Below the pieces are notes generated by a model. The model had not been told where the DNA came from, searched no databases, and saw only the letters and a program-made list of their open reading frames with translations. Position numbers and translations under genes: made by a program. Below are positions 693-37,076 of a stretch of DNA of 64,000 bases, piece by piece. Origin of the DNA: Micromonospora pattaloongensis (GTDB lineage: Bacteria > Actinomycetota > Actinomycetes > Mycobacteriales > Micromonosporaceae); contig NZ_FNPH01000001.1 in NCBI RefSeq assembly GCF_900107255.1, forward strand, positions 930,001 to 994,000. Reading direction: 5' to 3'. Each line of letters starts with the position of its first letter. The stretch's first letter is position 1.

Positions 693-2333
693 GTGCCGAA
701 CCCCTACCTCGTGCCGGCGATCGTGGCGGTCACCCTGGTCACCGTCGCCATCGGCTTCTACGGCCTGCGACTGGCCCGCACCACCTCGGACTTCCTGGTC
801 GCCTCCCGCGCGGTCAGTCCGACCTGGAACGCCGCCGCGATCGGCGGCGAGTACCTCTCCGCAGCGAGCTTCCTCGGCATCGCCGGCCTCATCCTCAAGT
901 ACGGCGTCGACGTGCTCTGGTACCCGGTCGGCTTCGCCGCCGGCTACCTCGCCCTGCTGCTCTTCGTGGCCGCACCGCTGCGCCGCTCCGGCGCGTTCAC
1001 CCTGCCCGACTTCTGCGAGGTGCGGCTCGGCTCGCGGCGGCTGCGCACCCTGGCCACCGCGTTCGTGATCTTCATCGGCTGGCTCTATCTGGTGCCGCAG
1101 TTGCAGGGGGCGGGGCTCACCCTGGCCACGGTGGCCGGCTCGCCGTACCCGGTGGGCGCTCTGGTCGTGGCCGCCGTGGTCACCGCGAACGTGGCGCTCG
1201 GCGGCATGCGGGCGATCACCTTCGTGCAGGCCTTCCAGTACTGGCTCAAGCTGACCGCGCTCGCCGTACCCGCGATCTTCCTGGCGCTGCAGTGGCAGGC
1301 CGACGCCCGCCCGGCGGTGACCCCGCCCGACGGGCCGGCGTTCCGGACCGCGACCACCGTGGTGGTCGAGCACCCGGCGACGCTCGCCCTGTCCGACGGC
1401 CAGACCCGGGAGGTACGCCCCGGCGACGAGCTGACGTTCGCCGCCGGCGACCCGGTGCCGGCGGTCTCCGGAGTGGCTACCGACGCGTCCGATTGGCTGC
1501 TGCCCAGCACCGCCGGGGCCGACGACCGCGGCCTGTTCGCCACGTACTCGCTGATCCTGGCGACCTTCCTCGGCACCATGGGGCTGCCGCACGTGCTGGT
1601 GCGCTTCTACACCAACCCGGACGGCGCCGCCGCCCGCCGCACCACGCTGGTGGTGCTCGCGATGGTCGGCGCCTTCTACCTGCTGCCCACCATCTACGGG
1701 GTGCTCGGCCGCATCTACACCCCGCAACTGCTGGTCACCGGGCAGACCGACGCGGTGGTGGTGCTGCTGCCCGGCGCCGCGCTCGGCGACGGCACCACCG
1801 GCCGGCTGCTCGCGGCGCTGGTCGCGGCCGGCGCGTTCGCGGCCTTCCTCTCCACCTCCTCCGGGCTGCTCACCAGCGTCGCCGGGGTGATCTCGACGGA
1901 CGTGCTCGGCCGGGGTTCGGTACGCGGCTTCCGGCTGGCCACGGTCATCGCCGGCGCGGTGCCCGCGGTGCTCGCGCTCAACGTCTCCGGGCTGAACGTC
2001 TCGCAGGTGGTCGGGCTCGCGTTCGCGGTCGCCGCGTCCAGCTTCTGCCCGCTGCTGGTGCTCGGCATCTGGTGGCGCGGGCTGACCGACCTCGGCGCCG
2101 CCGCCGGGGTGCTGGTCGGCGGCGGGGCCGCTGTCGGGGCCGTGCTGGTGACGGTGCTCGGCCCGCCGCTGTCCGGCTGGCCGGCCACGCTCATCGCGCA
2201 GCCGGCCGCCTGGACGGTGCCGCTGGCCTTCACCGTGATGGTGGCGGTCTCGATGGCGACCCGCCGGCGCGCCCCGGCCGACGTCGGCGCCACCATGCTC
2301 CGCCTCCACGCGCCCGAGGCCCTGCGGCTGTAA
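693..2333 (+). CDS. Sodium:solute symporter, ActP-like (module 1)
   Basis: This 546-residue polytopic protein of the SSS family (cation/acetate symporter branch) has about 13 membrane helices. Family landmarks include the N-terminal AIGGEYLSAASFLGIAG segment and GLPHVLVRFYTNPD in the middle. It starts at GTG 693, two nt after the preceding stop, so the pair is translationally coupled. A hydrophilic segment of roughly 75 residues (about 205-280, VTPPDG to STAGADD) between helices is longer than the corresponding loop of the paralogue at 8337-10007. Substrate is likely acetate or another short carboxylate taken up with Na+ or H+. The upstream LytTR regulator may control it. Confidence 0.88.
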   Translation: MPNPYLVPAIVAVTLVTVAIGFYGLRLARTTSDFLVASRAVSPTWNAAAIGGEYLSAASFLGIAGLILKYGVDVLWYPVGFAAGYLALLLFVAAPLRRSGAFTLPDFCEVRLGSRRLRTLATAFVIFIGWLYLVPQLQGAGLTLATVAGSPYPVGALVVAAVVTANVALGGMRAITFVQAFQYWLKLTALAVPAIFLALQWQADARPAVTPPDGPAFRTATTVVVEHPATLALSDGQTREVRPGDELTFAAGDPVPAVSGVATDASDWLLPSTAGADDRGLFATYSLILATFLGTMGLPHVLVRFYTNPDGAAARRTTLVVLAMVGAFYLLPTIYGVLGRIYTPQLLVTGQTDAVVVLLPGAALGDGTTGRLLAALVAAGAFAAFLSTSSGLLTSVAGVISTDVLGRGSVRGFRLATVIAGAVPAVLALNVSGLNVSQVVGLAFAVAASSFCPLLVLGIWWRGLTDLGAAAGVLVGGGAAVGAVLVTVLGPPLSGWPATLIAQPAAWTVPLAFTVMVAVSMATRRRAPADVGATMLRLHAPEALRL

Positions 2334-2737
2334 GGAGGGGGCGCTGGCAACGGCCGGGACGTCAGCAGCGTCGGTGCCGGCACAGAGCCGCTCGGCCGCG
2401 CGTTGCCCGGTCCGCCGCGCCTCGGCCGGGGCGTCCGGGCCTTTCAGCCAGACCTCCGCCACCAGGTCGCCCTGCCGGACGAAGAGCCAGCGGCTCTGCG
2501 TGCCCTCGACGTTCGAACCGATCAGAAGCGACTCGTCGCCGGCGAAACCCGAGTCGATGATGACAAGCGGGTCCTCCGGCCGGCGGGGATCTGTGACCAG
2601 CGCTGCCACGCCCGCACGTAGGCCTCCTGCGCCGCGTCCTGGGCCTCGCTCAGGTCACCGCCGAGTGCGTACAGCACCGTGACGACCCGATGTCTGGTGG
2701 TCCGATAGAACTCCTCGAACCCCTCGTCTCTGTCCAA
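2334..2737 (-). pseudogene. Fused remnant of SigE-type ECF sigma factor and a downstream gene
   Basis: From TTG 2737, preceded by a GGGGAGG Shine-Dalgarno, the frame encodes the start of an ECF sigma factor: DEGFEEFYRTTRHRVV, then AQDAAQEAYVRAWQRWSQI of region 2. Near 2590-2605 homology stops and a different frame opens (ALVTDPRRPEDPLVIIDSG, then SRWLFVRQGDLVAEVWLKGP). That second piece resembles the C-terminal half of the secreted proteins often encoded just after SigE-type sigma genes. It runs into the symporter 3' end without a stop of its own. The simplest reading is a deletion that removed sigma regions 3-4 and the start of the next gene, with loss of frame. Confidence 0.7.
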
Positions 2738-2918
2738 CGCGCCTCCCCGGTCGAGATCCTGCCTCTGTCACCCGTGACCGTGGCGTGCGGTTGCACGCGA
2801 TCCGCGAACGTGCTGTCCCGTCCGCCAGGCGCACGCGGCCCTCGTACATCTGGGGTATGACGGGAGACCATCCCCCTGCCGGAGTGTCACGTGGCCTGCG
2901 CCGGATACGGTCGGACCC

Positions 2919-3683
2919 ATGACTGGTGAGCACCCGGCTCTCGCCCTGCGCGGCCTGGCGAAGCGCTTTGACAGCAAGGTGGCGGTGGCGGGTGTCGACC
3001 TGGACGTCCCGACCGGTTCCTTCTACGGCCTGCTCGGCCCGAACGGCGCCGGCAAGACCACCACCCTGTCGATGGCGGTCGGGCTGCTCCGGCCGGACGC
3101 CGGGAGCGCCCGGGTGCTCGGGCACGACGTGTGGGCCGACCCGGTCCACGCGAAGCAGCTGCTCGGCGTCATGCCCGACGGCGTACGCCTCTTCGACCGC
3201 CTCACCGGGGCGGAGCTGCTGGCGTACCACGGGCTGCTGCGCGGCATGGACCCGACGGTGGTGGACCAGCGGGCGGCCGAACTGCTCGACGTGCTCGCGC
3301 TCGGCGACGCCGGGCGGACCCTGGTGGTGGACTACTCGGCCGGCATGAAGAAGAAGATCGGCCTGGCCTGCGCGCTGCTGCACGGTCCCCGGCTGCTCGT
3401 GCTGGACGAGCCGTTCGAGGCGGTCGATCCGGTGTCGGCCGCGCTGATCCGGGACATCCTCCAGCGGTACGTCGCCGGGGGCGGCACGGTGGTCTTCTCC
3501 AGCCATGTCATGGAGGTGGTCGAGCGGCTCTGCTCGCACGTGGCGATCCTCGCCGCCGGCACCATCAAGCGGGTCGGCACCCTCGACGAGGTACGCGGGG
3601 ACCGTGCGCTGGAGGAGGTCTTCGTCGAGGTGGTCGGCGGTCGGACCGCGACCGGCGAGGAGCTGGCGTGGCTGTCCCGGTGA
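2919..3683 (+). CDS. ABC transporter ATP-binding protein
   Basis: The 254-residue ATPase has Walker A GPNGAGKTT (about residue 40), a Q-loop-region segment GVMPDG, a degenerate signature YSAGMKKKI in place of LSGGQ, and Walker B LLVLDEPFEAVD. It resembles ATPases of ABC-2-type exporters. A TACGGT hexamer at 2906-2911 ends 7 nt before the ATG, suggesting a leaderless transcript. It overlaps the permease gene that follows by 16 nt, so both are made together and should form one exporter. Substrate unknown. Confidence 0.9.
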   Translation: MTGEHPALALRGLAKRFDSKVAVAGVDLDVPTGSFYGLLGPNGAGKTTTLSMAVGLLRPDAGSARVLGHDVWADPVHAKQLLGVMPDGVRLFDRLTGAELLAYHGLLRGMDPTVVDQRAAELLDVLALGDAGRTLVVDYSAGMKKKIGLACALLHGPRLLVLDEPFEAVDPVSAALIRDILQRYVAGGGTVVFSSHVMEVVERLCSHVAILAAGTIKRVGTLDEVRGDRALEEVFVEVVGGRTATGEELAWLSR

Positions 3684-5353
3684 ACGCCGCCGCCTCGTCG
3701 GGCGCGCCGGTGCGGCGGGTCTCCCCCCGCCACTTCGTCCGGCTGAAGCTGCGGGTGATGGGCAACAACTTCCGCGGGCAGGGCTGGCGGATCGCGCTCT
3801 TCGTGGTCGGGGTCCTGGTCGGGCTCTGGTTCGCCGGGACCGCGTTTCTGCTGCTCGCCGCGCCCGGCCTGGCCGACAACACCGAGTTCGCCGGGTTGAC
3901 GGCCGCGTTCGCGGGTGGGCTGATCGTGCTGGGCTGGCTGTTCCTGCCGCTGGTCTTCTTCGGCGTCGACGAGACGCTCGACCCGGCGCGCTTCGCGCTT
4001 CTGCCGCTGCGTCGGCGCACCCTCGTGAGCGGCATGTTCCTCGCGGCGCTGATCGGCGTTCCCGCGATCGCCACCTTCCTCGGCACCGGCGGGATCGTGG
4101 TCTCGGCCGCCCTGCTCGGCGGCGCGGGCGCCGCCGCGGCGCAGGCCGTCGGGATCGTCGCCGGGCTGCTCCTCTGCGTCGCCGTCAGCCGCGCGGTGAC
4201 CAGCGCCTTCGCCACGCTGCTGCGTTCCCGCCGGGTGCGTGACCTGGCCGCGGTCCTGCTCGCCGTGCTCGCCGCCCTCCTCGGCCCGCTGCAGATCGCC
4301 GTGATGAGCGCCGTGAACAACGCCGACTGGCAGCGGCTGAGCGGGGTGGCACGGGTGATCGGCTGGACGCCGCTCGCCGCCCCGTACACGGTCGGGATGG
4401 ACGTGGTCGAGGGGCGGGCCTGGGCGGTGCCGCTGAAGTTGGCGATCACCGCGGTGACGATCGCCGCCCTGCTCGCGTGGTGGTCGCGGTCGCTGGAGTC
4501 GGCGATGGTCGGCACCGCGGCGACCGGGCGGGTGCGACCGGAGGCCGGGCTGCCCGGGCAGCCGGTGGCGCGGCTCTTCCCGCGTGGCACGCGGTGGCTG
4601 TCCCGCGACCGGTACGGCGCGCTGGTGGCGCGCGAGCTGCGGTACTGGTGGCGGGACACGCGGCGCCGGGCCAGTCTGATCACCTTCGCGGTCGTCGGAA
4701 TCTTCGTGCCCGTGATGGCGAACGTCGGCGGCAAGGGCCTGATGGACGGGCAGAACGACTTCGACGCCTCGCCGACGCTGGTCGGCCTCTCGATGCTCTT
4801 CGTCGGCATGCTCGCGGCTCTCAGCCTCGCCAACCAGTTCGGCTTCGACGGCAGCGCGTACGCGGCCAACGTGATCGCCGGGGTGCCGGGCAAGGTGGAA
4901 CTGCGCGCGCGGCTGGTCGCGTACTCGATCTACATCGTGCCGCTGCTCGTCGCCATCTCGATCGTCCTCGGGCTCTTCCTGCGCGAGCCGGCCTGGATCG
5001 GCGTCGCCGCCGGCACGCTCTTCGCCGCGTACGGCGCCGGGCTCGCGATCACGCTCTTCGTCTCCGTGTTCGGCGCCTACGCCCTGCCCGAGACCTCCAA
5101 CCCGTTCGCCATGAACAGCGGCGCCGGCATGGCCCGCAGCCTGCTCAGCCTGCTGGCCATGGTGGGGGCCGGGGCCGCCGCCATGCCGATGGTGATCGCC
5201 ACCGCGTTGCTCGGCGAGGTGTGGTTCTGGCTGGCCCTGCCCGTCGGCCTGGCGTACGGCGTCGGCGCGGCCGCGCTCGGCACGTACCTCGCCGGTGACG
5301 TGCTCGACCGGCGCATGCCGGAACTGCTGCAGACGGTCACGCCGCGACGCTGA
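3668..5353 (+). CDS. ABC transporter permease
   Basis: The 561-residue integral membrane protein has about 12 hydrophobic segments in two halves (about residues 35-280 and 330-555). A cytoplasmic stretch with the RYGALVARELRYWWRDTRRR motif lies between them. GTG 3668 is chosen because GGCGAGGAG sits 5 nt upstream inside the ATPase gene; GTG 3680, which overlaps the ATPase stop, is the alternative. Two fused halves with one ATPase fit an exporter with an ATPase homodimer. No substrate can be read from the sequence. Confidence 0.85.
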   Translation: MAVPVNAAASSGAPVRRVSPRHFVRLKLRVMGNNFRGQGWRIALFVVGVLVGLWFAGTAFLLLAAPGLADNTEFAGLTAAFAGGLIVLGWLFLPLVFFGVDETLDPARFALLPLRRRTLVSGMFLAALIGVPAIATFLGTGGIVVSAALLGGAGAAAAQAVGIVAGLLLCVAVSRAVTSAFATLLRSRRVRDLAAVLLAVLAALLGPLQIAVMSAVNNADWQRLSGVARVIGWTPLAAPYTVGMDVVEGRAWAVPLKLAITAVTIAALLAWWSRSLESAMVGTAATGRVRPEAGLPGQPVARLFPRGTRWLSRDRYGALVARELRYWWRDTRRRASLITFAVVGIFVPVMANVGGKGLMDGQNDFDASPTLVGLSMLFVGMLAALSLANQFGFDGSAYAANVIAGVPGKVELRARLVAYSIYIVPLLVAISIVLGLFLREPAWIGVAAGTLFAAYGAGLAITLFVSVFGAYALPETSNPFAMNSGAGMARSLLSLLAMVGAGAAAMPMVIATALLGEVWFWLALPVGLAYGVGAAALGTYLAGDVLDRRMPELLQTVTPRR

Positions 5354-5362
5354 GACGGGGGA

Positions 5363-5911
5363 ATGTTTCACGTGAATCAGCCCGAACCCGGTGCGCAGAT
5401 CCACGGCACCGATCCGTTCGCCACCCCGGAACAGGCCCGGTCGCCGCTGCGCCGGCTGCGGGGCCGGCTCGCCGCGCCGGTCACGCTCTGGACCGCGTAC
5501 GACAACTCCGCCGCGCCGGCCGGTCTCACCGTCTCCTCCACCCTGGTGGTGGACGGCGACCCGGGGCGGCTACTCGGCCTGATCGACGACGAGTCGGAGG
5601 TGTGGGAGGCGGTGTCCGAGTCGGGGCGCTTCGCGATCGCGCCGCTCGGGCCGCCGCACCGCCAGCTCGCGGACCAGTTCGCCGGGCTGTTCCCGGCCCC
5701 CGGCGGGCTGTTCGCGGGCGGCGACTGGACGCGCACGCCGTACGGGCCGGTGCCCGGCGGGGTGACGACCTGGGCCGGATGCCGCCTGGACAGCGCGCGG
5801 GAGTACGGCTGGGCACTGCTCGTGGAGGCGACCATCGAGACCGTCGAGATCGGCGCCGACGAGCCGCCGTTGCTGCACTACCGCGGCCGGTACCGGGAGC
5901 TCGCGGGCTGA
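5363..5911 (+). CDS. Flavin reductase family protein
   Basis: The 182-residue protein has the fold signature of FMN-binding flavin reductases (flavin_Reduct family). ARSPLRRLRGRLAAPVTLWTA leads into a first strand, then LTVSSTLVVDGDPGRLLGLI, SGRFAIAPL and a C-terminal YRGRYREL. Members bind FMN and use NAD(P)H to reduce flavin or another acceptor. GGGG at 5357-5360 lies just upstream of ATG 5363. The first six codons (MFHVNQ) coincide with the parS-like site, so the N-terminus may be shaped by ParB binding rather than by enzyme function. Confidence 0.8.
   Translation: MFHVNQPEPGAQIHGTDPFATPEQARSPLRRLRGRLAAPVTLWTAYDNSAAPAGLTVSSTLVVDGDPGRLLGLIDDESEVWEAVSESGRFAIAPLGPPHRQLADQFAGLFPAPGGLFAGGDWTRTPYGPVPGGVTTWAGCRLDSAREYGWALLVEATIETVEIGADEPPLLHYRGRYRELAG
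5364..5379. promoter_or_regulatory. parS: parS-like centromere site
   Basis: TGTTTCACGTGAATCA matches the bacterial parS consensus TGTTTCACGTGAAACA at 15 of 16 positions; the only difference is T for A at 5377. The central TTCACGTGAA is a perfect palindrome. It begins one base into the start codon of the flavin reductase gene. ParB binds such sites clustered around oriC to organise and segregate the origin. The only other CACGTG sites noticed (for example 2887 and 40337) lack the flanking bases. Confidence 0.8.
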
Positions 5912-6009
5912 CAGGCCGGTCAGCGCACCACTACCCTCGGCGATGGCTGATATCGACGGCGACTGTCACGGCGCCAATCACTAGAGCTGGTGAAGGAAGT
6001 GGCGAGGAC

Positions 6010-6198
6010 ATGGACCTGAACCGCGCCCGGTGGCGGAAATCGAGCCGTTCCAGCGGCAACGGCGGGTCCTGTGTGGAGGTCGCGGACAACCTCCACGAGG
6101 TCGTCCTCGTGCGGGACACCAAGGACCGGCAGGGGCCGATGCTGACGTTCGGTCCGGACGCGTGGCGGGCGTTCGTGGAGTTCGCCAAACGGCGGTAG
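6010..6198 (+). CDS. DUF397 protein, copy 1
   Basis: The 62-residue protein MDLNRARWRKSSRSS...GGSCVEVADN...VLVRDTKDRQGP...FGPDAWRAFVEFAKRR is a full-length DUF397 domain. DUF397 proteins are small actinobacterial partners of helix-turn-helix regulators that carry DUF5753. Some act as BldB-like developmental factors or as antagonists of the HTH protein. It is nearly identical to the next gene, a recent tandem duplication. No HTH-DUF5753 gene is adjacent. Confidence 0.9.
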   Translation: MDLNRARWRKSSRSSGNGGSCVEVADNLHEVVLVRDTKDRQGPMLTFGPDAWRAFVEFAKRR

Positions 6199-6243
6199 CC
6201 GACGCCAACAGTCCGCCGACCTGATCAAGGGAGCTGTGGAGAA

Positions 6244-6432
6244 GTGGACCTGAACCCGGCGCGGTGGCGGAAGTCGACTCGTTCCGGCACCAACGGCGGG
6301 TCCTGTGTGGAGGTCGCGGACAACCTCCACGAGGTCGTCCTCGTGCGGGATGCCAAGGACCGGCAGGGGCCGATGCTGACGTTCGGTCCGGACGCGTGGC
6401 GGGCGTTCGTGGAGTTCGCCAAACGGCGGTAG
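6244..6432 (+). CDS. DUF397 protein, copy 2
   Basis: This second 62-residue DUF397 protein starts at GTG 6244 behind AGGGAGC. It differs from copy 1 mainly in the N-terminal serine-rich stretch (STRSGTNGG against SSRSSGNGG) and at one residue after VLVRD (A for T). The DNA after the first 50 bases is almost unchanged, so the duplication is young or maintained by gene conversion. It is probably co-transcribed with copy 1 across a 45-nt gap. Confidence 0.88.
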   Translation: MDLNPARWRKSTRSGTNGGSCVEVADNLHEVVLVRDAKDRQGPMLTFGPDAWRAFVEFAKRR

Positions 6433-6643
6433 CCGACGCCACGAGTGCGTGACGTCGGCGGTGCTGCGATCGGTGCAGGTCGGGGCGGTGCCGGTAGTGC
6501 TACGGCGCGGGTAGTGGCCTGGCGAGCGGGGCGAGCCGGCAGGAGGTCACCTGTCTGGGCGGTGCGCTCTGCGCTCAGATCAGCGGAGAGAGTGCGACAA
6601 ACGGTCCCTCTCGTGGCGGAGAAGGACCGTGAGGCGAACTGGG

Positions 6644-6961
6644 TCAGGCGCCGGCTTCTTGTTGCCGCTGGTAATTCTCGTTCTGCCGAAGGGCTTCTTC
6701 GAGCTGGTCCTCGAGAATGATGATCCGGCAGGCGGCTTCCAGAGGGGTGCCTTGGTCGACCATCTCGCGAGCCCGGGCGGCGAGGCGCAACTGGTAGCGG
6801 GAGTAGCGGCGGTGCCCGCCGGATGACCGGGACGGGGTGATCAGCTTCGCCTCGTCCAGCCGGCGCAGGAAATCCGGCGAGGCGCCGGTGATCTCCGCAG
6901 CGCGGCCCATCGTGTAGGCGGGGTAGTCGTCGTCGCCGAACATGTCATCGGGTTGGGCCAT
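6644..6961 (-). CDS. MerR-family transcriptional regulator
   Basis: The 105-residue protein has an N-terminal winged HTH of the MerR type: YTMGRAAEITGASPDFLRRLDEAKLITPSRSSGGHRRYSRYQL. A coiled-coil-like dimerisation helix follows (LEAACRIIILEDQLEEALRQNENYQRQQ). There is no effector domain, so it resembles short constitutive regulators rather than metal or drug sensors. ATG 6961 is preferred over ATG 6967 because GGAGAG lies 6 nt upstream. Targets are unknown; the promoter would lie in the gene-free stretch to its right. Confidence 0.85.
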   Translation of the reverse strand: MAQPDDMFGDDDYPAYTMGRAAEITGASPDFLRRLDEAKLITPSRSSGGHRRYSRYQLRLAARAREMVDQGTPLEAACRIIILEDQLEEALRQNENYQRQQEAGA

Positions 6962-6967
6962 ATACAT

Positions 6968-7902
6968 CTCTCCATGACGAGGGCCCCGGCGCGAGAGCGC
7001 CGGGGCCCAGGGTTACGGGTCGAAAACACCATCTACCGACAGGTTCGTCGGGTTGTCGTATCCGCACCTGCCGCCGTCGGCGGCGTGGGGTGCGAGGATC
7101 GCGTAAGCGTGACCGGAGACCACCTCTCGTTCGATGGAAACTGCGGTGTCCGCGCCAGAGTTGGAACTGCGTCCTGGCGGCGGGCGATCCAACGGTGTTC
7201 AGCCCTCCCTTTCCTCTGCTTCCGATATCTGTGGTGCTGTGGTGCTGTCCGCCGGTGTCGAAGCCCCACGCAACTTCATGGCCCCGCACACGTGCGGCGA
7301 ACTGTCCTGCCAGGCCGGGCGCTCAATCAGCATCGCCCCGCCTGCTTTGCCCTGACCTGGACCTACATCAGGGCTTACCTTCCACGTGCCTTGCCTTGCT
7401 GCGTGCGGTGATGCGTACTTCCACCGCCGTGCCGAGCGAGCCACGAAATGGTTCCGGGCCCTGCTTGACGCTCGGTCTGACTCGTCTGCGTCTTTCTCGG
7501 ATCTCTTCTGTCAACGCCAGGAACACTAGCTAGTCGCGGCAAGGATGTCTAGTACGTTCGTCATAGATTTTCTTGGCGGCGGTCCGAGCTTCCAGGATGG
7601 CGGCAGTGGCGCCCACGGTGTCAGTGCCGACGCGGAGATCGCGCACGGATCGTTTATGCAGGGGCGGCGCCGGCGCGCCGGTGAGCGGCGTGAGCTGGGT
7701 CACTCGGCGCAGCCAGGGGGCCGTTCGGCGCATCCGGCCGCCGCACCGCCATCGCTGCTACCCCCGCCGTCTCCCGCCTTCCTACGGTGCGCCAAAACCG
7801 TAGTCCGATGAAGGTGGTGAACCGCGTGAGTGCGCACCAGCGAACAGGCACGCGCATCCCGATAATCCCTCTCGCCGCCGAGGCCCCCTGTGAGGTGACG
7901 GC
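6968..7902. other. Gene-free stretch of about 0.9 kb
   Basis: No convincing gene lies here on either strand. The open frames have unbiased codon use and no recognisable domains. Composition is visibly less GC-rich than the neighbours around 7100-7560. Three CTAG tetramers occur within 30 bp at 7528-7555 (CTAGCTAG and ATGTCTAGTAC), which is notable because CTAG is rare in such genomes and typical of GntR-type operators. The left end should hold the promoter of the MerR gene and the right end that of the DUF485-symporter pair. Confidence 0.6.
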
Positions 7903-8340
7903 ATGAGCACCGACGCCCCCGACGCGACCGCGCCCGAGGGCGCGGCCGACGCCGGCACAACCGCCGCGCCCGACGGCGGCGCGACCGAGACCGCCGCGGC
8001 CGACGCCGGCACGACGCCGATCAGCCCGGAACGGCACCTCGCCGTGCAGGCATCGGACGAGTTCGCGGGGCTCCGCAAGGCGCTGCGCGGCTTCGTCTTC
8101 CCGATGACCGTGGCGTTCTTCCTCTGGTACGCGCTGTACGTGATCCTCTCGGCGTACGCGCGCGGCTTCATGAGCGTGAAGCTGGTCGGAAACATCAACG
8201 TGGCGCTCGTATTCGGCCTGCTCCAGTTCGTCTCCACGTTCCTGATCGCCTGGCTCTACTCCCGGTACGCCGAACGCAAGCTGGACCCGGTGGCCGACCG
8301 GATCCGGGCGGAGCTCGAAAGCGAAGGTGCCGCGCGATGA
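7903..8340 (+). CDS. DUF485 membrane protein
   Basis: The 145-residue protein has an Ala/Thr/Asp-rich N-terminal tail of about 45 residues, then the DUF485 core. The core contains FAGLRKALRGFVFPMTVAFF, helix 1 (about 67-90), GNINVALVFGLLQFVSTFLIAWLY (helix 2) and YSRYAERKLDPVADRIR. DUF485 proteins (YjcH type) accompany ActP acetate permeases and are taken as accessory subunits. It overlaps the symporter gene by 4 nt (ATGA), so the two are translationally coupled. Confidence 0.92.
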   Translation: MSTDAPDATAPEGAADAGTTAAPDGGATETAAADAGTTPISPERHLAVQASDEFAGLRKALRGFVFPMTVAFFLWYALYVILSAYARGFMSVKLVGNINVALVFGLLQFVSTFLIAWLYSRYAERKLDPVADRIRAELESEGAAR

Positions 8341-10007
8341 AAATCCTGCTCGCCGCGGAGGCCACCAACGGCACCGCCCGCACGCTGACCATCACGCTCT
8401 TCCTGCTCTTCGTCGCGGTGACGCTCGGCATCACCCTCTGGGCGAGCCGGCAGACCAAGAGCGCGGCGGACTTCTACGCCGGCGGCCGCTCGTTCTCCGG
8501 CTTCCAGAACGGCATGGCGATCGGCGGCGACTACATGTCGGCCGCGTCGTTCCTCGGCATCGCCGGCATCATCGCCCTGTACGGCTACGACGGCTTCCTC
8601 TACTCGATCGGGTTCCTGGTCGCGTGGCTGGTCGCGCTGCTGCTCGTCGCCGAGCTGCTGCGTAACTCCGGCAAGTACACGATGGCGGACGTGCTCGCGT
8701 TCCGGATGCGGCAGCGGCCGGTGCGCACCGCCGCCGCCGTCTCGACCATCACGGTGTCGATCTTCTATCTGCTGGCGCAGATGGTCGGCGCGGGCGCGCT
8801 CGTGGCGCTGTTGCTCGGCATCCGTCCCGGGACCACGTTCCTCGGCATGGACGCCGACGCCGCGAAGATCGCCACGATCATCCTGGTCGGCGCCCTAATG
8901 ATCATCTACGTCACGGTCGGCGGGATGAAGGGCACCACGTACGTCCAGATCGTCAAGGCGTTCCTGCTGATGAGCGGCGCGCTGATCATGACGCTGCTGG
9001 TGCTCGCGCACTACAAGTTCAATCTCTCGGCGCTCCTCGGCGACGCGGCCGCCGCCTCCGGCAAGGGGAACGCGTTCCTCGAACCCGGTCTGCGGTACGG
9101 CGTGGAGAGCGGCGACGCGCTGAAGACCTTCTACAGCAAGGTCGACCTGCTGTCGCTCGGCATCGCGCTGGTGCTCGGCACCGCCGGCCTGCCGCACATC
9201 CTGATCCGCTTCTACACGGTCCCGACCGCGAAGGCGGCCCGCAAGAGCGTGCTCTGGGCGATCGGCATCATCGGCGTGTTCTACCTGTTCACGCTGGCGC
9301 TGGGCTTCGGCGCGGCGGCCCTGGTGGGCAAGGATGCGATCACCGCGCAGGACAAGGCCGGCAACACCGCGGCTCCGCAGCTGGCGCAGGCGCTCGGCGT
9401 CGACTTCCTCGGCGGTGACATCGGCGGGGCCACGCTCCTGGCGATCATCGCGGCGGTCGCCTTCGCCACCATTCTCGCCGTGGTCGCCGGACTCACCCTG
9501 GCGTCGTCGTCCAGCCTCGCCCACGACTTCTACGCGAACGTCGTGAAGCGGGGCCAGGCGTCCGAACGGCAGGAGGTGAGCGTCGCACGGATCTCGGCCT
9601 TCGTGATCGGCGCGATCTCGATCGTGCTGTCGATCTTCGCGCAGAACCTGAACGTGGCGTTCCTGGTGGCGCTCGCGTTCGCGGTCGCCGCCTCCGGCAA
9701 CCTGCCGGCGATCCTCTACAGCCTGTTCTGGAAGCGGTTCAACACCTCCGGCGCGGTGTGGGCGATCTACGGCGGTCTGCTCAGCGCCGTACTGCTGGTG
9801 TTCTTCTCTCCGGTGGTCTCGGGCGCGCCGACGGCGATGTTCCCGAACTCCGACTGGCAGTGGTTCCCGCTGTCGAACCCGGGCATCATCTCGATCCCGT
9901 TCGGCTTCCTCTGCGGCTGGATCGGCACGGTGATCTCGAAGGAGAGTGACGACGAGAAGTACGCGGAGCTGGAGGTCCGCGCCCTGACCGGCGCCGGCGC
10001 CCACTGA
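8337..10007 (+). CDS. actP: Cation/acetate symporter, ActP-like (module 2)
   Basis: This 556-residue SSS-family symporter has about 13 membrane helices. Landmarks are AIGGDYMSAASFLGIAGIIALYGYDG, the SGKYTMADVLAFRMRQRPVR loop, GLPHILIRFYTVPTAKAARKS and the LASSSSLAHDFYANV segment typical of ActP. It imports acetate and similar short carboxylates with Na+ or H+. It is paralogous to the symporter at 693-2333 but closer to classical ActP. The hairpin at 10028-10059 ends the operon. Confidence 0.92.
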   Translation: MKILLAAEATNGTARTLTITLFLLFVAVTLGITLWASRQTKSAADFYAGGRSFSGFQNGMAIGGDYMSAASFLGIAGIIALYGYDGFLYSIGFLVAWLVALLLVAELLRNSGKYTMADVLAFRMRQRPVRTAAAVSTITVSIFYLLAQMVGAGALVALLLGIRPGTTFLGMDADAAKIATIILVGALMIIYVTVGGMKGTTYVQIVKAFLLMSGALIMTLLVLAHYKFNLSALLGDAAAASGKGNAFLEPGLRYGVESGDALKTFYSKVDLLSLGIALVLGTAGLPHILIRFYTVPTAKAARKSVLWAIGIIGVFYLFTLALGFGAAALVGKDAITAQDKAGNTAAPQLAQALGVDFLGGDIGGATLLAIIAAVAFATILAVVAGLTLASSSSLAHDFYANVVKRGQASERQEVSVARISAFVIGAISIVLSIFAQNLNVAFLVALAFAVAASGNLPAILYSLFWKRFNTSGAVWAIYGGLLSAVLLVFFSPVVSGAPTAMFPNSDWQWFPLSNPGIISIPFGFLCGWIGTVISKESDDEKYAELEVRALTGAGAH

Positions 10008-10027
10008 CCGGCGCAGCACCTCTCACC

Positions 10028-10059
10028 GGACCCCGGGTGGCGACAGCCACCCGGGGTCC
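10028..10059. terminator. Hairpin terminator after actP
   Basis: Perfect 14-bp stem (GGACCCCGGGTGGC and its complement) with a 4-nt loop GACA, 20 bp after the symporter stop. No T-tract follows, as is usual for actinobacterial terminators. Confidence 0.75.
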
Positions 10060-10103
10060 ATCGCGAATGGGCCCCGTCCGTCCGTCTCGGTAGGCTGACC
10101 GTC

Positions 10104-11081
10104 ATGGTGGTTAGTCCGCGTTTCGGAGAAGGTCATCGGATTCTCGTCACCGGTGGGGCCGGTTTCGTGCCGTCCCACGTGGTCGACGCCCTCATCGACC
10201 GTGGTTGCACGGTGGTGGCGCTCGACAACTTCGTGACCGGATCGAAGGAGAACGTCGCGCACCTGGCGGACCACCCGCGGTTCACGCTCGTCGAGGCCGA
10301 CGCCTCCGACGGGCTCCCCGCGCACCACCCGGCGATCGCGCCGCGGTTCGACGCGATCCTGCACATGGCGTCCCCGGCCAGCCCGAAGGACTTCGCCACA
10401 CTGCCGGTCGAGATCCTCCGGGTCGGCTCGCTGGCGACCCTGCACCTGCTCGACCGGGCCGCCGCCGACGGCGCGCGGTTCCTGATGGCCTCCACCTCGG
10501 AGGCGTACGGCGACCCGCTGGTGCACCCGCAGACCGAGACGTACTGGGGCAACGTCAACCCGATCGGGGTGCGCAGCGTCTACGACGAGGGCAAGCGCTT
10601 CTCCGAGGCCGCCACGATGGCGTACCACCGCTACCGGGGCGTCGACGTCGCGATCGTCCGGATCTTCAACACGTACGGCCCGCGCATGCGGCCGGACGAC
10701 GGCCGCGCGATCCCGACCTTCATCAGCCAGGCGCTGCGCGGGGAGCCGATCACGGTGCACGGCACCGGGGCGCAGACCCGGTCGATCTGCTACGTCGACG
10801 ACCTCGTCCGGGGCATTCTGCTGCTGCTCGATTCCACCGAGACCGGGCCGATCAACTGCGGGACCGAGCACGAGATGTCGATGCGCGAGCTGGCGGAGCG
10901 GATCGTCGCGCTGGCCGGGAGCACGTCGGAGGTGGCGTACCTGACGCGCACCGCGGACGACCCGGAGATGCGGCGGCCGGACCTCACGCTGGCCCGGACG
11001 CGGCTGGGCTACGAGCCGTCGGTCACTCCGGAGGATGGCCTGCGGCGCACAATCGAGTACTTCCGGCAGCGCCTGACGTAA
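10104..11081 (+). CDS. NAD-dependent epimerase/dehydratase, UDP-glucuronate decarboxylase-like
   Basis: The 325-residue short-chain dehydrogenase of the extended type has an N-terminal Rossmann motif GGAGFVPSH. The family norm is GGAGFIGSH, so a proline replaces the third glycine region. The catalytic Tyr-Lys pair is in YDEGKR, and RIFNTYGPRMRPDDGRAIPTFI and GTGAQTRSICYVDDLV are hallmarks of UDP-xylose synthase-like enzymes. It would act in the cytoplasm on a UDP-sugar. It precedes three LCP genes, so it may supply a sugar for a wall glycopolymer. TAGGCT at 10091-10096 ends 7 nt before the ATG (leaderless pattern). Confidence 0.82.
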   Translation: MVVSPRFGEGHRILVTGGAGFVPSHVVDALIDRGCTVVALDNFVTGSKENVAHLADHPRFTLVEADASDGLPAHHPAIAPRFDAILHMASPASPKDFATLPVEILRVGSLATLHLLDRAAADGARFLMASTSEAYGDPLVHPQTETYWGNVNPIGVRSVYDEGKRFSEAATMAYHRYRGVDVAIVRIFNTYGPRMRPDDGRAIPTFISQALRGEPITVHGTGAQTRSICYVDDLVRGILLLLDSTETGPINCGTEHEMSMRELAERIVALAGSTSEVAYLTRTADDPEMRRPDLTLARTRLGYEPSVTPEDGLRRTIEYFRQRLT

Positions 11082-29439: not shown

Positions 29440-30263
29440 TGGGACAGCCGCCACGACTCATCGCCACGGACCTCGACGGGACGCTGCTCCGCCCCGACAA
29501 GTCGGTCAGCGCGCGGACCGCCGCCGCGCTGGAGCGGGTCTCCGCGCAGGGCGTGCGGGTCGTGCTGGTCACCGGTCGCCCCGTGCGCTGGCTGGACCTG
29601 GTCTACCAGCAGTTGCACGCGCCCGTGCCCGCGGTCTGCGCCAACGGGGCGGTCGTCTACGACCCGGTCACCGACGAGGTGCTCCGTGCCGACCCGCTCG
29701 CCCCCGACCTGATGGCCGAGGTGGTCCGCCGGCTGCGTGCCGAGGTACCCGGCGTGGTCTTCGCGGTGGAGGTGCAGGACGGGCGCCTGATGCGGCACGG
29801 CGAGGACTGGCCGACGCACTGGAACAGCGACCATCCGACCGCCCGGCTGGTCGCCACCCCGGAGGAACTGCTCTCCGCGCCCGCGGTGAAGCTGCTGGCG
29901 CGCAGCACGCAGGACCCGGAGGTGTTCGTGAAGACGGTGGCGGGCGCCATCGCCGGGCTCGCCGAGGCCACCCACTCGTCGTACTCGGGGCTCGTGGAGA
30001 TCTCGGCGGCCGGGGTGACGAAGGCCGCGGGGCTCGCCTGGCTCTGCTCCCGGTTCGGGCTGACCGCGGCCGACGTGATCGCCTTCGGGGACATGCCGAA
30101 CGACGTGCCGATGCTGACCTGGGCCGGGCGGGCGGTGGCGGTCGCCAACGCCCACCCGACCGTGCGGGAGATCGCCGACGCGGTGACGGCGTCGAACTCC
30201 GAGGACGGCGTCGCCGCCTACCTGGAAGAGCTGTTCGCGCTCGGGTCGCCGGACCGGACCTAG
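29439..30263 (+). CDS. HAD-family phosphatase (Cof-type), paralogue
   Basis: The 274-residue paralogue of the preceding gene has the same motifs (ATDLDGTLLRPDK, VLVTGRP, VTKAAGLAWL with the motif III Lys, and GDMPNDVPML). The ATG overlaps the previous TGA by one base; GTG 29436 is the alternative. It lacks TTA codons. Its 3' end overlaps the convergent bpa gene by 4 bp. Separate substrates are likely because the cap region (about 85-185) has diverged. Confidence 0.9.
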   Translation: MGQPPRLIATDLDGTLLRPDKSVSARTAAALERVSAQGVRVVLVTGRPVRWLDLVYQQLHAPVPAVCANGAVVYDPVTDEVLRADPLAPDLMAEVVRRLRAEVPGVVFAVEVQDGRLMRHGEDWPTHWNSDHPTARLVATPEELLSAPAVKLLARSTQDPEVFVKTVAGAIAGLAEATHSSYSGLVEISAAGVTKAAGLAWLCSRFGLTAADVIAFGDMPNDVPMLTWAGRAVAVANAHPTVREIADAVTASNSEDGVAAYLEELFALGSPDRT

Positions 30264-30862
30264 AGGTACTGGCCGGTGCGGCTGGGGTCCTCGCCGGGCT
30301 GGCCCGGCTGCCCGGGCATCCCCGGCACCATCCCCGGCCCCACCGGCAGCGCCCGGCGCCCGCCGGTGCGCATCTGCTCCAGCTGCATCCGCGCGGCCAT
30401 CTGCTGCGCGACCAGCGCCGCCTGGATGCCGTGGAAGAGCCCCTCCAGCCAGCCGACGAGCTGTGCCTGGGCGACCCGTAGCTCGGCCTCGCTCGGGGTG
30501 GCGCCCTCCTCGAACGGCAGCGAGAGCCGCGCCAGCTCCTCGCGCAGTTCCGGCGCGAGCCCGTCCTCCAGCTCGGTGATCGACCGCTGGTGGATCTCGC
30601 GGAGCCGGTGCCGGCTCGCCTCGTCGAGTGGCGCCGCCCGCACCTCCTCGAGCAGCTGCTTGATCATGCTGCCGATGCGCATCACCTTCGCCGGCTGCTC
30701 GATCAGCCGCGACGGGTCCTCGGCGTCGGTCTCGCCGTCGGCGTCGCTCTCGACGGTGCCCACCGGGCGGCCGTCGGGCCCGACCACGACGACCGCGCCG
30801 GGGGCGCTCGGGACCGAGGGCTTCGGCTCGTTCTCTTCCGGGTTTCGCGGCGCTTCGGTCAT
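30260..30862 (-). CDS. bpa: Bacterial proteasome activator Bpa (PafE)
   Basis: The 200-residue Bpa/DUF2587 protein has a disordered acidic head (about 1-55) and a helical core. The core contains RLIEQPAKVMRIGSMIKQLLEEVR, ASRHRLREIHQRSITELEDGLAPELREELARLSLPF and AELRVAQAQLVGWLEGLFHGIQAALVAQQ, which form the 12-fold ring. The Gly/Pro/Met linker ends RTGQYL. The GQYL terminus docks in the alpha-ring pockets of the 20S proteasome and opens the gate for ATP-independent degradation. ATG 30862 is preferred over ATG 30871. Proteasome core genes lie outside the window. Confidence 0.93.
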   Translation of the reverse strand: MTEAPRNPEENEPKPSVPSAPGAVVVVGPDGRPVGTVESDADGETDAEDPSRLIEQPAKVMRIGSMIKQLLEEVRAAPLDEASRHRLREIHQRSITELEDGLAPELREELARLSLPFEEGATPSEAELRVAQAQLVGWLEGLFHGIQAALVAQQMAARMQLEQMRTGGRRALPVGPGMVPGMPGQPGQPGEDPSRTGQYL

Positions 30863-31212
30863 GCGATCCATCTTCGCTCAGCGACCGCCCCGGCCGTGCG
30901 CCGGGATCCAGGATCCCCGCGATCGCGTACCCTTTCAGTTACCGATCGTAGTGGCCGCCCGTCGGCATCCTCGGCCTCCGCTGGTCCGGAGCGCGGCCCG
31001 GCGGGAGCGCGCGCTACGGCAGGCAGGCCGGCCTTCCGGCTGGTCAAGACCGGCATAACGGGATCTTTCGGTGGCAGGGCGGCGACGTCGGCGTACGCCG
31101 GCGCGATCGGACCAGCGCCACCGAAGATCACGCGGCATTGACGCAGCGTCGCGAACCGGGTAGAACGCCGAGGGGGTCGGATCGGCCCGACGACCGCGTG
31201 GAAGGACAGCCC
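30863..31212. other. Intergenic region of 350 bp
   Basis: No gene is seen on either strand; the short open frames are Arg-rich with no domain. The right end holds the GAAGGAC Shine-Dalgarno of the binding-protein gene (31201-31207). The region lies between divergent genes and should hold both promoters. Confidence 0.5.
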
Positions 31213-35796: not shown

Positions 35797-36897
35797 CTAC
35801 AGGTACATCCCGGTCCGGTGCTCACCCGGATCCCGCTGGGCCGGCTTGTCCCCCTCGCCGAAGAAACGCTTACCGCCGAACTCGCCGTGCAGCCGATCGT
35901 CCAACTCGTCCGCCAAGCCGGTCATCACCTGGATCGCGAGCATGAGATGGCTGGCCTGGAAGTTCCGGCCGAACACGGGCACCGACGCCCACACCGTGTC
36001 CTCGGTGCAGTACAGCCGACCGATCGGCATCCGGTTGGTCAGCTCGGAGAGCCGGACGTAGAGCCGCTCGGTCGGCTCGACCTCGGTGAGCACCGGGGAG
36101 AAGACGTCGACCAGCGGCGGATTGTCCCGCACCCGGACGAAGACCATCGCCGAACCGGCGCGGATGCTCACGTCCCCGTCGGAGTCGACCTGCAGCTGCT
36201 CCGGATTGCTCTTCATCATCGTGGCGACGACCGTGCGTACCCGCTCGTCGAGCGGGATTGCCTCCGCGTCGCGCTGCGCCGAACGGGCCGCCTCCAGCGC
36301 CGCGTCGAGATCGCCGTTCCGCACCGCCTCGGGACGCGCGGCGCCGATCGGCTCCGCCTCGATCGGTTCATCGTCGGCGTCGTGCACGAGGTAGACCAGG
36401 AACGCCGGGTGCGGCGCGCCGTAGACGTCGCGGAGCGTGCGGGCGATCGTCGCGGCGAGGCGGCCGGCCTGCGCGGTCGTGGTGCTCAGCCCGAAGTCCT
36501 CACCCGAGCCCTCCACCACACCCGGCGGGGACCAGCCGAGCGCGACGAGGTCCGCGACCGCGGCCCGGTCCATCCGGAATCCCGGCGGCAGGGCGGCGTT
36601 GCCGACCGCCAGCGCGGTGATCCGGCCGTCGTCGCCGATCTGAACGCTGACCGAGTAGATCGCGTCGCCGGTGCCGGAGGCTGTCGGGTCCAGGGTCAGC
36701 TCGACGCGCGCCCCGGCCGGCAGCCGCGGCAGCGCGTCGCCGAGCGCGCGCGCGAACTCCTGCCACGCCTCGCGCACCTTGGCGCGCAGATCCGCCGTCG
36801 TCGGTTCGTCGAGCAGCACCGGGTCCAGGTATTGGGCCGCGTCCCCGGGCTGCTCACGGGCCTGGTCGCTCGCCGCGCCCGCGCCGTCGTCCGCCAT
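35797..36897 (-). CDS. YbjN/TY-Chap-like protein with RTGMYL tail
   Basis: The 366-residue cytoplasmic protein has two recognisable parts. Residues about 30-150 form a DUF-type alpha/beta domain with DPTASGTGDAIYSVSVQIG, PPGFRMDRAAVADLVALGW. Residues about 210-345 resemble T3SS-chaperone/YbjN (TY-Chap) domains: VRTVVATMMKSNPEQLQVDSDGDVSIRAGSAMVFVRV and LYVRLSELTNRMPIGRLYCTEDTVWASVPVFG. ATG 36897 has GGGAGGG 8 nt upstream. The last residues are RTGMYL, nearly the proteasome-docking end of Bpa (RTGQYL). The family call is moderate; the tail is directly visible. Confidence 0.75.
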   Translation of the reverse strand: MADDGAGAASDQAREQPGDAAQYLDPVLLDEPTTADLRAKVREAWQEFARALGDALPRLPAGARVELTLDPTASGTGDAIYSVSVQIGDDGRITALAVGNAALPPGFRMDRAAVADLVALGWSPPGVVEGSGEDFGLSTTTAQAGRLAATIARTLRDVYGAPHPAFLVYLVHDADDEPIEAEPIGAARPEAVRNGDLDAALEAARSAQRDAEAIPLDERVRTVVATMMKSNPEQLQVDSDGDVSIRAGSAMVFVRVRDNPPLVDVFSPVLTEVEPTERLYVRLSELTNRMPIGRLYCTEDTVWASVPVFGRNFQASHLMLAIQVMTGLADELDDRLHGEFGGKRFFGEGDKPAQRDPGEHRTGMYL

Positions 36898-37076
36898 GAT
36901 GATCACCCTCCCCGTCCGTCGGCCACAACCCTATCGACCGGACCGGCGGGCCGGCGCGCCCGGCTCTGGCGGGCGAGGGCACCCGGTACGCGCCCGTCGC
37001 GCGTGATCGGAGCGCGACCCGGGCCGCAGGTGCCGGGCGTCGGCCTGGCAGCACCGGATCGCGGACCGGGGAACGG

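Follow-up and report, generated by a model that had tools for sequence, protein, structure and literature searches.

The window analysed here, a stretch of 64,000 nucleotides of Micromonospora pattaloongensis DNA, encodes a two-domain TY-Chap protein whose last six residues, RTGMYL, differ by a single residue from the RTGQYL end of the bacterial proteasome activator Bpa encoded in the same window. This likeness was pointed out in the first-pass annotation, and both ends were confirmed by translation. That the tail is near-unchanged across very different relatives suggests, as judged from the sequences, that the TY-Chap protein is a so far undescribed helper of the proteasome.

Domain organization and fold

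The positions of the TY-Chap gene, its parts and Bpa in the window are as follows.

35797..36897, minus strand: TY-Chap protein gene; ATG at 36897, stop TAG at 35797-35799; 366 residues
36397..36771, minus strand: TY-Chap3 domain (PF22552), residues 43-167; hmmscan E=1.6e-27
35857..36252, minus strand: TY-Chap1 domain (PF22551), residues 216-347, T3SS/YbjN chaperone fold; hmmscan E=3.7e-45
35818..35856, minus strand: flexible linker, residues 348-360, hypervariable in sequence and length; pLDDT <50
35800..35811, minus strand: C-terminal GMYL, putative docking tail for 20S alpha-ring pockets; the last six residues, RTGMYL, lie at 35800-35817
30260..30871, minus strand: Bpa (bacterial proteasome activator), PF10759 E=1.3e-75; C-terminus SRTGQYL

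The open reading frame of the TY-Chap gene spans 35797..36906 on the minus strand, and the C-terminus of its product reads HRTGMYL. The gene is present as a single copy in the 5.35 Mb genome. In hmmscan, the TY-Chap1 and TY-Chap3 domains score 153.2 and 97 bits, with curated cut-offs of 27, and the protein has no match to the Bpa domain (PF10759). NCBIfam holds no model for it.

The AlphaFold model of the TY-Chap protein (pLDDT 79.5; like the other structure model used, a monomer) consists of two confident domains, with the TY-Chap3 domain modelled mostly at pLDDT >90, and of a disordered stretch from residue 348 to 366. A Foldseek search of the PDB with this model returned 2plg, ExsC, SycH, SycT, CesT and YbjN, with a probability of 1.00 and a target-normalised TM of about 0.5-0.8, showing that the model falls in the T3SS/YbjN chaperone fold. 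The TY-Chap/YbjN domain that had been noted earlier is thus borne out by Pfam, which resolves it into PF22552 and PF22551, and by the match of the model to solved structures.

Conservation of the C-terminal tail

Orthologues were found in 171 of the 201 genomes of the host's family, with matches that extend to residue 366. All 56 orthologues whose C-termini were compared end in GxYL (GMYL in 53, GQYL in two and GLYL in one), and an exact IGQYL end is found in two of the orthologues (L039, L053). When 34 diverse orthologues with identities down to about 45% were aligned, G363, Y365 and L366 were invariant, and the linker columns next to them had entropies of 2-3.5 bits. The length of the linker, measured from the end of the domain to the last four residues, ranges from 13 to 21 residues in 55 orthologues. 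Since the codons of the tail Gly, Tyr and Leu vary and all three stop codons occur among the orthologues, the conservation acts on the end of the protein and not on the DNA. The same genomes also hold TY-Chap1 or TY-Chap3 paralogues without the tail (L063, L064, L065), which serve as an internal control.

Following a proposal of the first-pass annotation, we also compared the conservation of this end with that of the end of Bpa. Phylum-wide, Bpa proteins terminate in G[QPTSN]Y[LI]. The TY-Chap tail keeps its G, Y and L without exception and has M, Q or L at x where Bpa has Q, P, T, S or N, so that it is as strict as its counterpart. By lineage (L099-L128), the Bpa tail is GPYL in Streptomyces-like genomes, GTYL, GSYL, GNYL or GTYI elsewhere, and GQYL in others. 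The variable x of the TY-Chap tail agrees with studies of Bpa and Mpa, in which the Q of GQYL was dispensable and could be exchanged without loss (PMC6017811; PMC12288473).

Judged from residue frequencies, about one in 5000 proteins would end in GxYL by chance. About one such end is therefore expected in a proteome of this size, and a GMYL end seen in one protein could be a chance resemblance. We regard this explanation as extremely improbable, since it is refuted by the conservation of the tail down to an identity of about 45% beside a linker that is not conserved. The strongest excess over chance is the retention of the tail in 56 of 56 orthologues.

Co-occurrence with the proteasome

The host genome carries prcA, prcB, pup, Mpa (with a GQYL tail; L088) and Bpa, i.e. 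a complete Pup-proteasome system. We sampled 197 genomes across the phylum. Of these, 20 have a TY-Chap1 match and 84 are hit by the PrcB model, which scores above its cut-off in 83. All 11 sample genomes with a tailed TY-Chap1 have prcB; their tails are GMYL (G000, G192), GAYL (G056), GGYL (G037), PGYL (G001), and SGYL or TGYL (G009, G050, G072, G094, G105, G183). The ends other than GMYL belong to more distant TY-Chap1 proteins from other actinobacterial families, Nitriliruptoraceae among them. The tail is absent in all four TY-Chap1 genomes of the sample that lack prcB (G186, G015, G133, G074). It is also absent from the TY-Chap1 protein of five prcB-bearing genomes (G188, G154, G016, G060, G082), and several of the matches without a tail score weakly and could represent other families of YbjN-like proteins. 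The association of the tail with prcB has a one-sided Fisher p=0.026 in this sample, in which the lineages are not independent.

The proposed co-occurrence with prcBA holds in one direction. No tailed form was seen in a genome without prcB, but 30 genomes of the host's family (about twenty of them in genus g155) have neither the TY-Chap gene nor a TY-Chap1 match, and all 30 are prcB-positive. We therefore rejected the gene as a strict correlate of prcBA. A PF22551 match was also absent in the sampled mycobacterial-like (f2) and Streptomyces-like (f4) genomes, and the TY-Chap gene does not have the near-universality in prcBA genomes that has been reported for Bpa. As it is missing from many proteasome-bearing genomes, the TY-Chap protein is an accessory, non-obligatory factor.

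A scan of GTDB with proteins of the G050 type gave 15 loci, mostly from Nitriliruptoraceae MAGs together with Salsipaludibacter albus, and all 15 proteins end in -GYL. In this tail the glycine stands directly before the Tyr, one register off G-x-Y-L. The Mpa of Nitriliruptoraceae genomes, where found, ends in GQYL. The Nitriliruptoraceae protein was modelled and compared in the same way (AlphaFold, Foldseek) and has the same T3SS/YbjN fold with a disordered tail at residues 149-161. Bpa was not found in five of these genomes that have prcB and a tailed TY-Chap1 (G009, G050, G072, G094, G105), and was found in their sibling G183. Because these five prcB-positive Nitriliruptoraceae genomes lack a Bpa match, the tailed TY-Chap1 might replace Bpa in them. 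In the Nitriliruptoraceae locus L144 (about 2000-10250), the TY-Chap gene, on inspection by eye, has an ArsA-like ATPase pair on one side and a penicillin-binding protein on the other, with a metallophosphoesterase after the latter; no proteasome genes adjoin it in this neighbourhood, likewise judged by eye.

The register shift of the Nitriliruptoraceae tail, and the fact that docking is deduced from sequence, would fit an explanation in which the GxYL end serves another purpose, be it recognition by some other protease or partner, or packing within the protein's own fold, and resembles Bpa by convergence. However, both models show the tail as disordered, a variable linker sets it off, it is restricted to prcB-positive genomes in the sample, and it occurs as exact GQYL in two lineages. 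We consider a purpose of this kind unlikely.

Gene neighbourhood

The TY-Chap gene lies outside any proteasome operon. It is 4-6 kb away from the Bpa gene in L129 and L136, and Bpa was not found within about 10 kb of it in the seven other family loci checked (L137-L143). The genes between the two are unrelated (DDAH-like, Lrp regulator, beta-propeller). As seven loci are without the linkage and the intervening genes are unrelated, we gave proximity to Bpa little weight as a sign of function.

A loss of the TY-Chap gene was observed in the Salinispora-like genome G376 (L272 15308-15611), which has two prcB genes. This genome retains the neighbourhood that runs from DUF4192 to Bpa, with Bpa in place, but the TY-Chap gene is missing between mobA and the beta-propeller gene; the match to fdhD is partial. 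In Salinispora tropica CNB-440, a second beta subunit guards against the organism's own proteasome inhibitor.

Other proteins with a GxYL end

The whole genome was scanned with the DNA pattern GGNNNNTAYCTN plus a stop, which leucine ends coded by TTA or TTG escape. Five sites had a true stop, namely Mpa (GQYL), Bpa (GQYL), the TY-Chap protein (GMYL), a Cpn10 paralogue (GLYL) and a spurious frame of 19 residues. Once this frame is set aside, all real proteins of the scan are therefore protein-quality-control factors.

The Cpn10/GroES paralogue (PF00166) is encoded outside the window, at G000:C24:618645-618980(+) of the host genome (L206/L095), and ends in TGLYL. When it was searched for in 121 genomes of the family, 120 gave matches, although in a few genomes it was canonical GroES alone that matched. 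The matches to the paralogue reach the last residue with few exceptions, genus g155 included, and TGLYL was found at all 30 ends examined. Cpn10-type proteins ending in GLYL also occur in the Streptomyces-like genome G162 and in G060. GroES is a heptamer, matching the seven-fold symmetry of the alpha ring, and a co-chaperonin-type ring bearing a proteasome-docking tail would be striking if true.

In three genera (L260 in G199, L263 in G218, L267 in G162), the last four residues of a DUF5925 AAA+ ATPase (PF19347, PF00004) are GQYL, GMYL or GLYL, and its tail makes it another candidate for a proteasome-docking ATPase. In G133, the sole prcB-less genome in the census of GxYL ends, no real GxYL protein was found. 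Literature searches on a cochaperonin with the mycobacterial proteasome and on DUF5925 returned nothing.

Discussion

The PrcA of the host has an Arg at position 26 and a Lys at position 52, in what we take to be the register of the mycobacterial PrcA numbering. In published cryo-EM work, the alpha-subunit residues R26 and K52 are contacted by Tyr and Leu at the end of Bpa (PMC11953334). As both PrcA residues are present in the host and the tail is conserved, the TY-Chap protein probably docks on the alpha ring of the 20S proteasome via its GxYL tail.

How docking could serve the proteasome is suggested by the arrangement of the protein. The TY-Chap3 and TY-Chap1 domains are predicted from their fold to hold unfolded or extended stretches of a client. 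The flexible linker of 13-21 residues would present the GxYL end, and its Tyr and terminal Leu would enter the pockets between PrcA subunits, as the tails of Bpa and Mpa do. Once docked, the TY-Chap protein may carry its client up to the gate, which it possibly helps to open. Given that the body of the protein has the fold of a peptide-binding chaperone, the most economical function would be to deliver unfolded clients, and on this analysis we find the case for delivery, as opposed to gating, competition or assembly, evenly balanced.

We lean slightly towards the full reading, in which a chaperone that binds clients independently of ATP docks on the 20S proteasome of actinobacteria. The known activators are rings (Mpa a hexamer, Bpa a dodecamer) whose binding uses avidity, and T3SS-type chaperones are usually dimers, which counts against a docking chaperone. 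The same is true of the 30 prcB-positive genomes without the gene, its absence from the f2 and f4 samples, the register shift to -GYL, the five tailless prcB-positive genomes and the lack of a proteasome operon.

A role in assembly, as a plug or in competition for the pockets is the main rival. The same tail would dock on the alpha ring, and the protein would be a chaperone of assembly or storage, or would keep Mpa and Bpa away in the manner of a plug. The combination of chaperone domains with a docking tail follows a logic like that of the eukaryotic assembly chaperones Pba1-Pba2, whose HbYX tails fill the equivalent pockets of the alpha ring. Moreover, the regulation of activator association with the bacterial core has been stated to be unknown (PMC12288473), which leaves room for such a role. 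As regards assembly, however, 30 prcB-positive genomes do without the gene and the mycobacterial-like and Streptomyces-like samples have no match, so proteasome assembly does not depend on the TY-Chap protein. We regard this rival as rather unlikely.

Taken as a docking chaperone, the TY-Chap protein can be compared with the three bacterial proteasome partners described in reviews, Mpa/ARC, Bpa/PafE and Cpa. Bpa/PafE (PF10759) is an ATP-independent partner with a variable linker of 15-20 residues and a conserved C-terminal G-x-Y-L, as the TY-Chap protein would be in the reading proposed, but it is a four-helix bundle that forms a dodecamer ring, whereas the TY-Chap protein has two T3SS/YbjN-like domains. 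The proteasomal ATPase Mpa/ARC shares a C-terminal docking tail, GQYL, and is encoded in the same genome, but is an AAA+ hexamer that reads Pup and has no homology to the TY-Chap protein. Cpa, the Cdc48-like proteasome interactor, is likewise an accessory partner limited to prcBA-bearing actinobacteria (PMC6017811), but is an AAA+ ring without a penultimate-Tyr tail. ClpI was considered as an earlier-reported protein of the GQYL type and rejected, as its authors state that the motif is absent.

Class I T3SS effector chaperones (ExsC, SycH, SycT, CesT) and YbjN share the fold of the TY-Chap protein, but no docking tail is known in them and their roles are in secretion or regulation. PMC9503650 defined the TY-Chap families as chaperones of ARG-centred ADP-ribose conflict systems that are predicted to bind peptides. 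The Pfam domains TY-Chap1 and TY-Chap3 are common to those systems and the protein described here; theirs lie in immunity-type neighbourhoods, whereas ours is a family-conserved chromosomal gene with a putative docking tail. The passages on TY-Chap in that paper mention no connection to the proteasome, and we found in the literature neither an earlier report of a TY-Chap protein as a proteasome partner nor one linking YbjN with the proteasome.

The proposal of the first-pass annotation, that this protein is a proteasome partner, is favoured by the conservation of the tail, the restriction of the tailed forms seen to prcB-bearing genomes, and the fold. Of the two findings that the annotation had named as refuting, a variable GxYL end and an equal occurrence in genomes lacking a proteasome, neither was borne out. 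It needs to be qualified in that the protein is not universal in proteasome genomes, and would be an accessory partner.

Tentatively, and with somewhat less confidence than for the TY-Chap protein itself, we suggest that a hidden set of non-homologous GxYL-tailed quality-control factors (TY-Chap, the Cpn10 paralogue and the DUF5925 AAA+ protein) may serve the 20S proteasome beyond Mpa and Bpa. If so, several types of chaperone would pass clients to one core via the same pockets. For the TY-Chap protein, docking, if true, would mean a further substrate route to the core that is independent of pupylation and ATP, or a regulator of the pockets.
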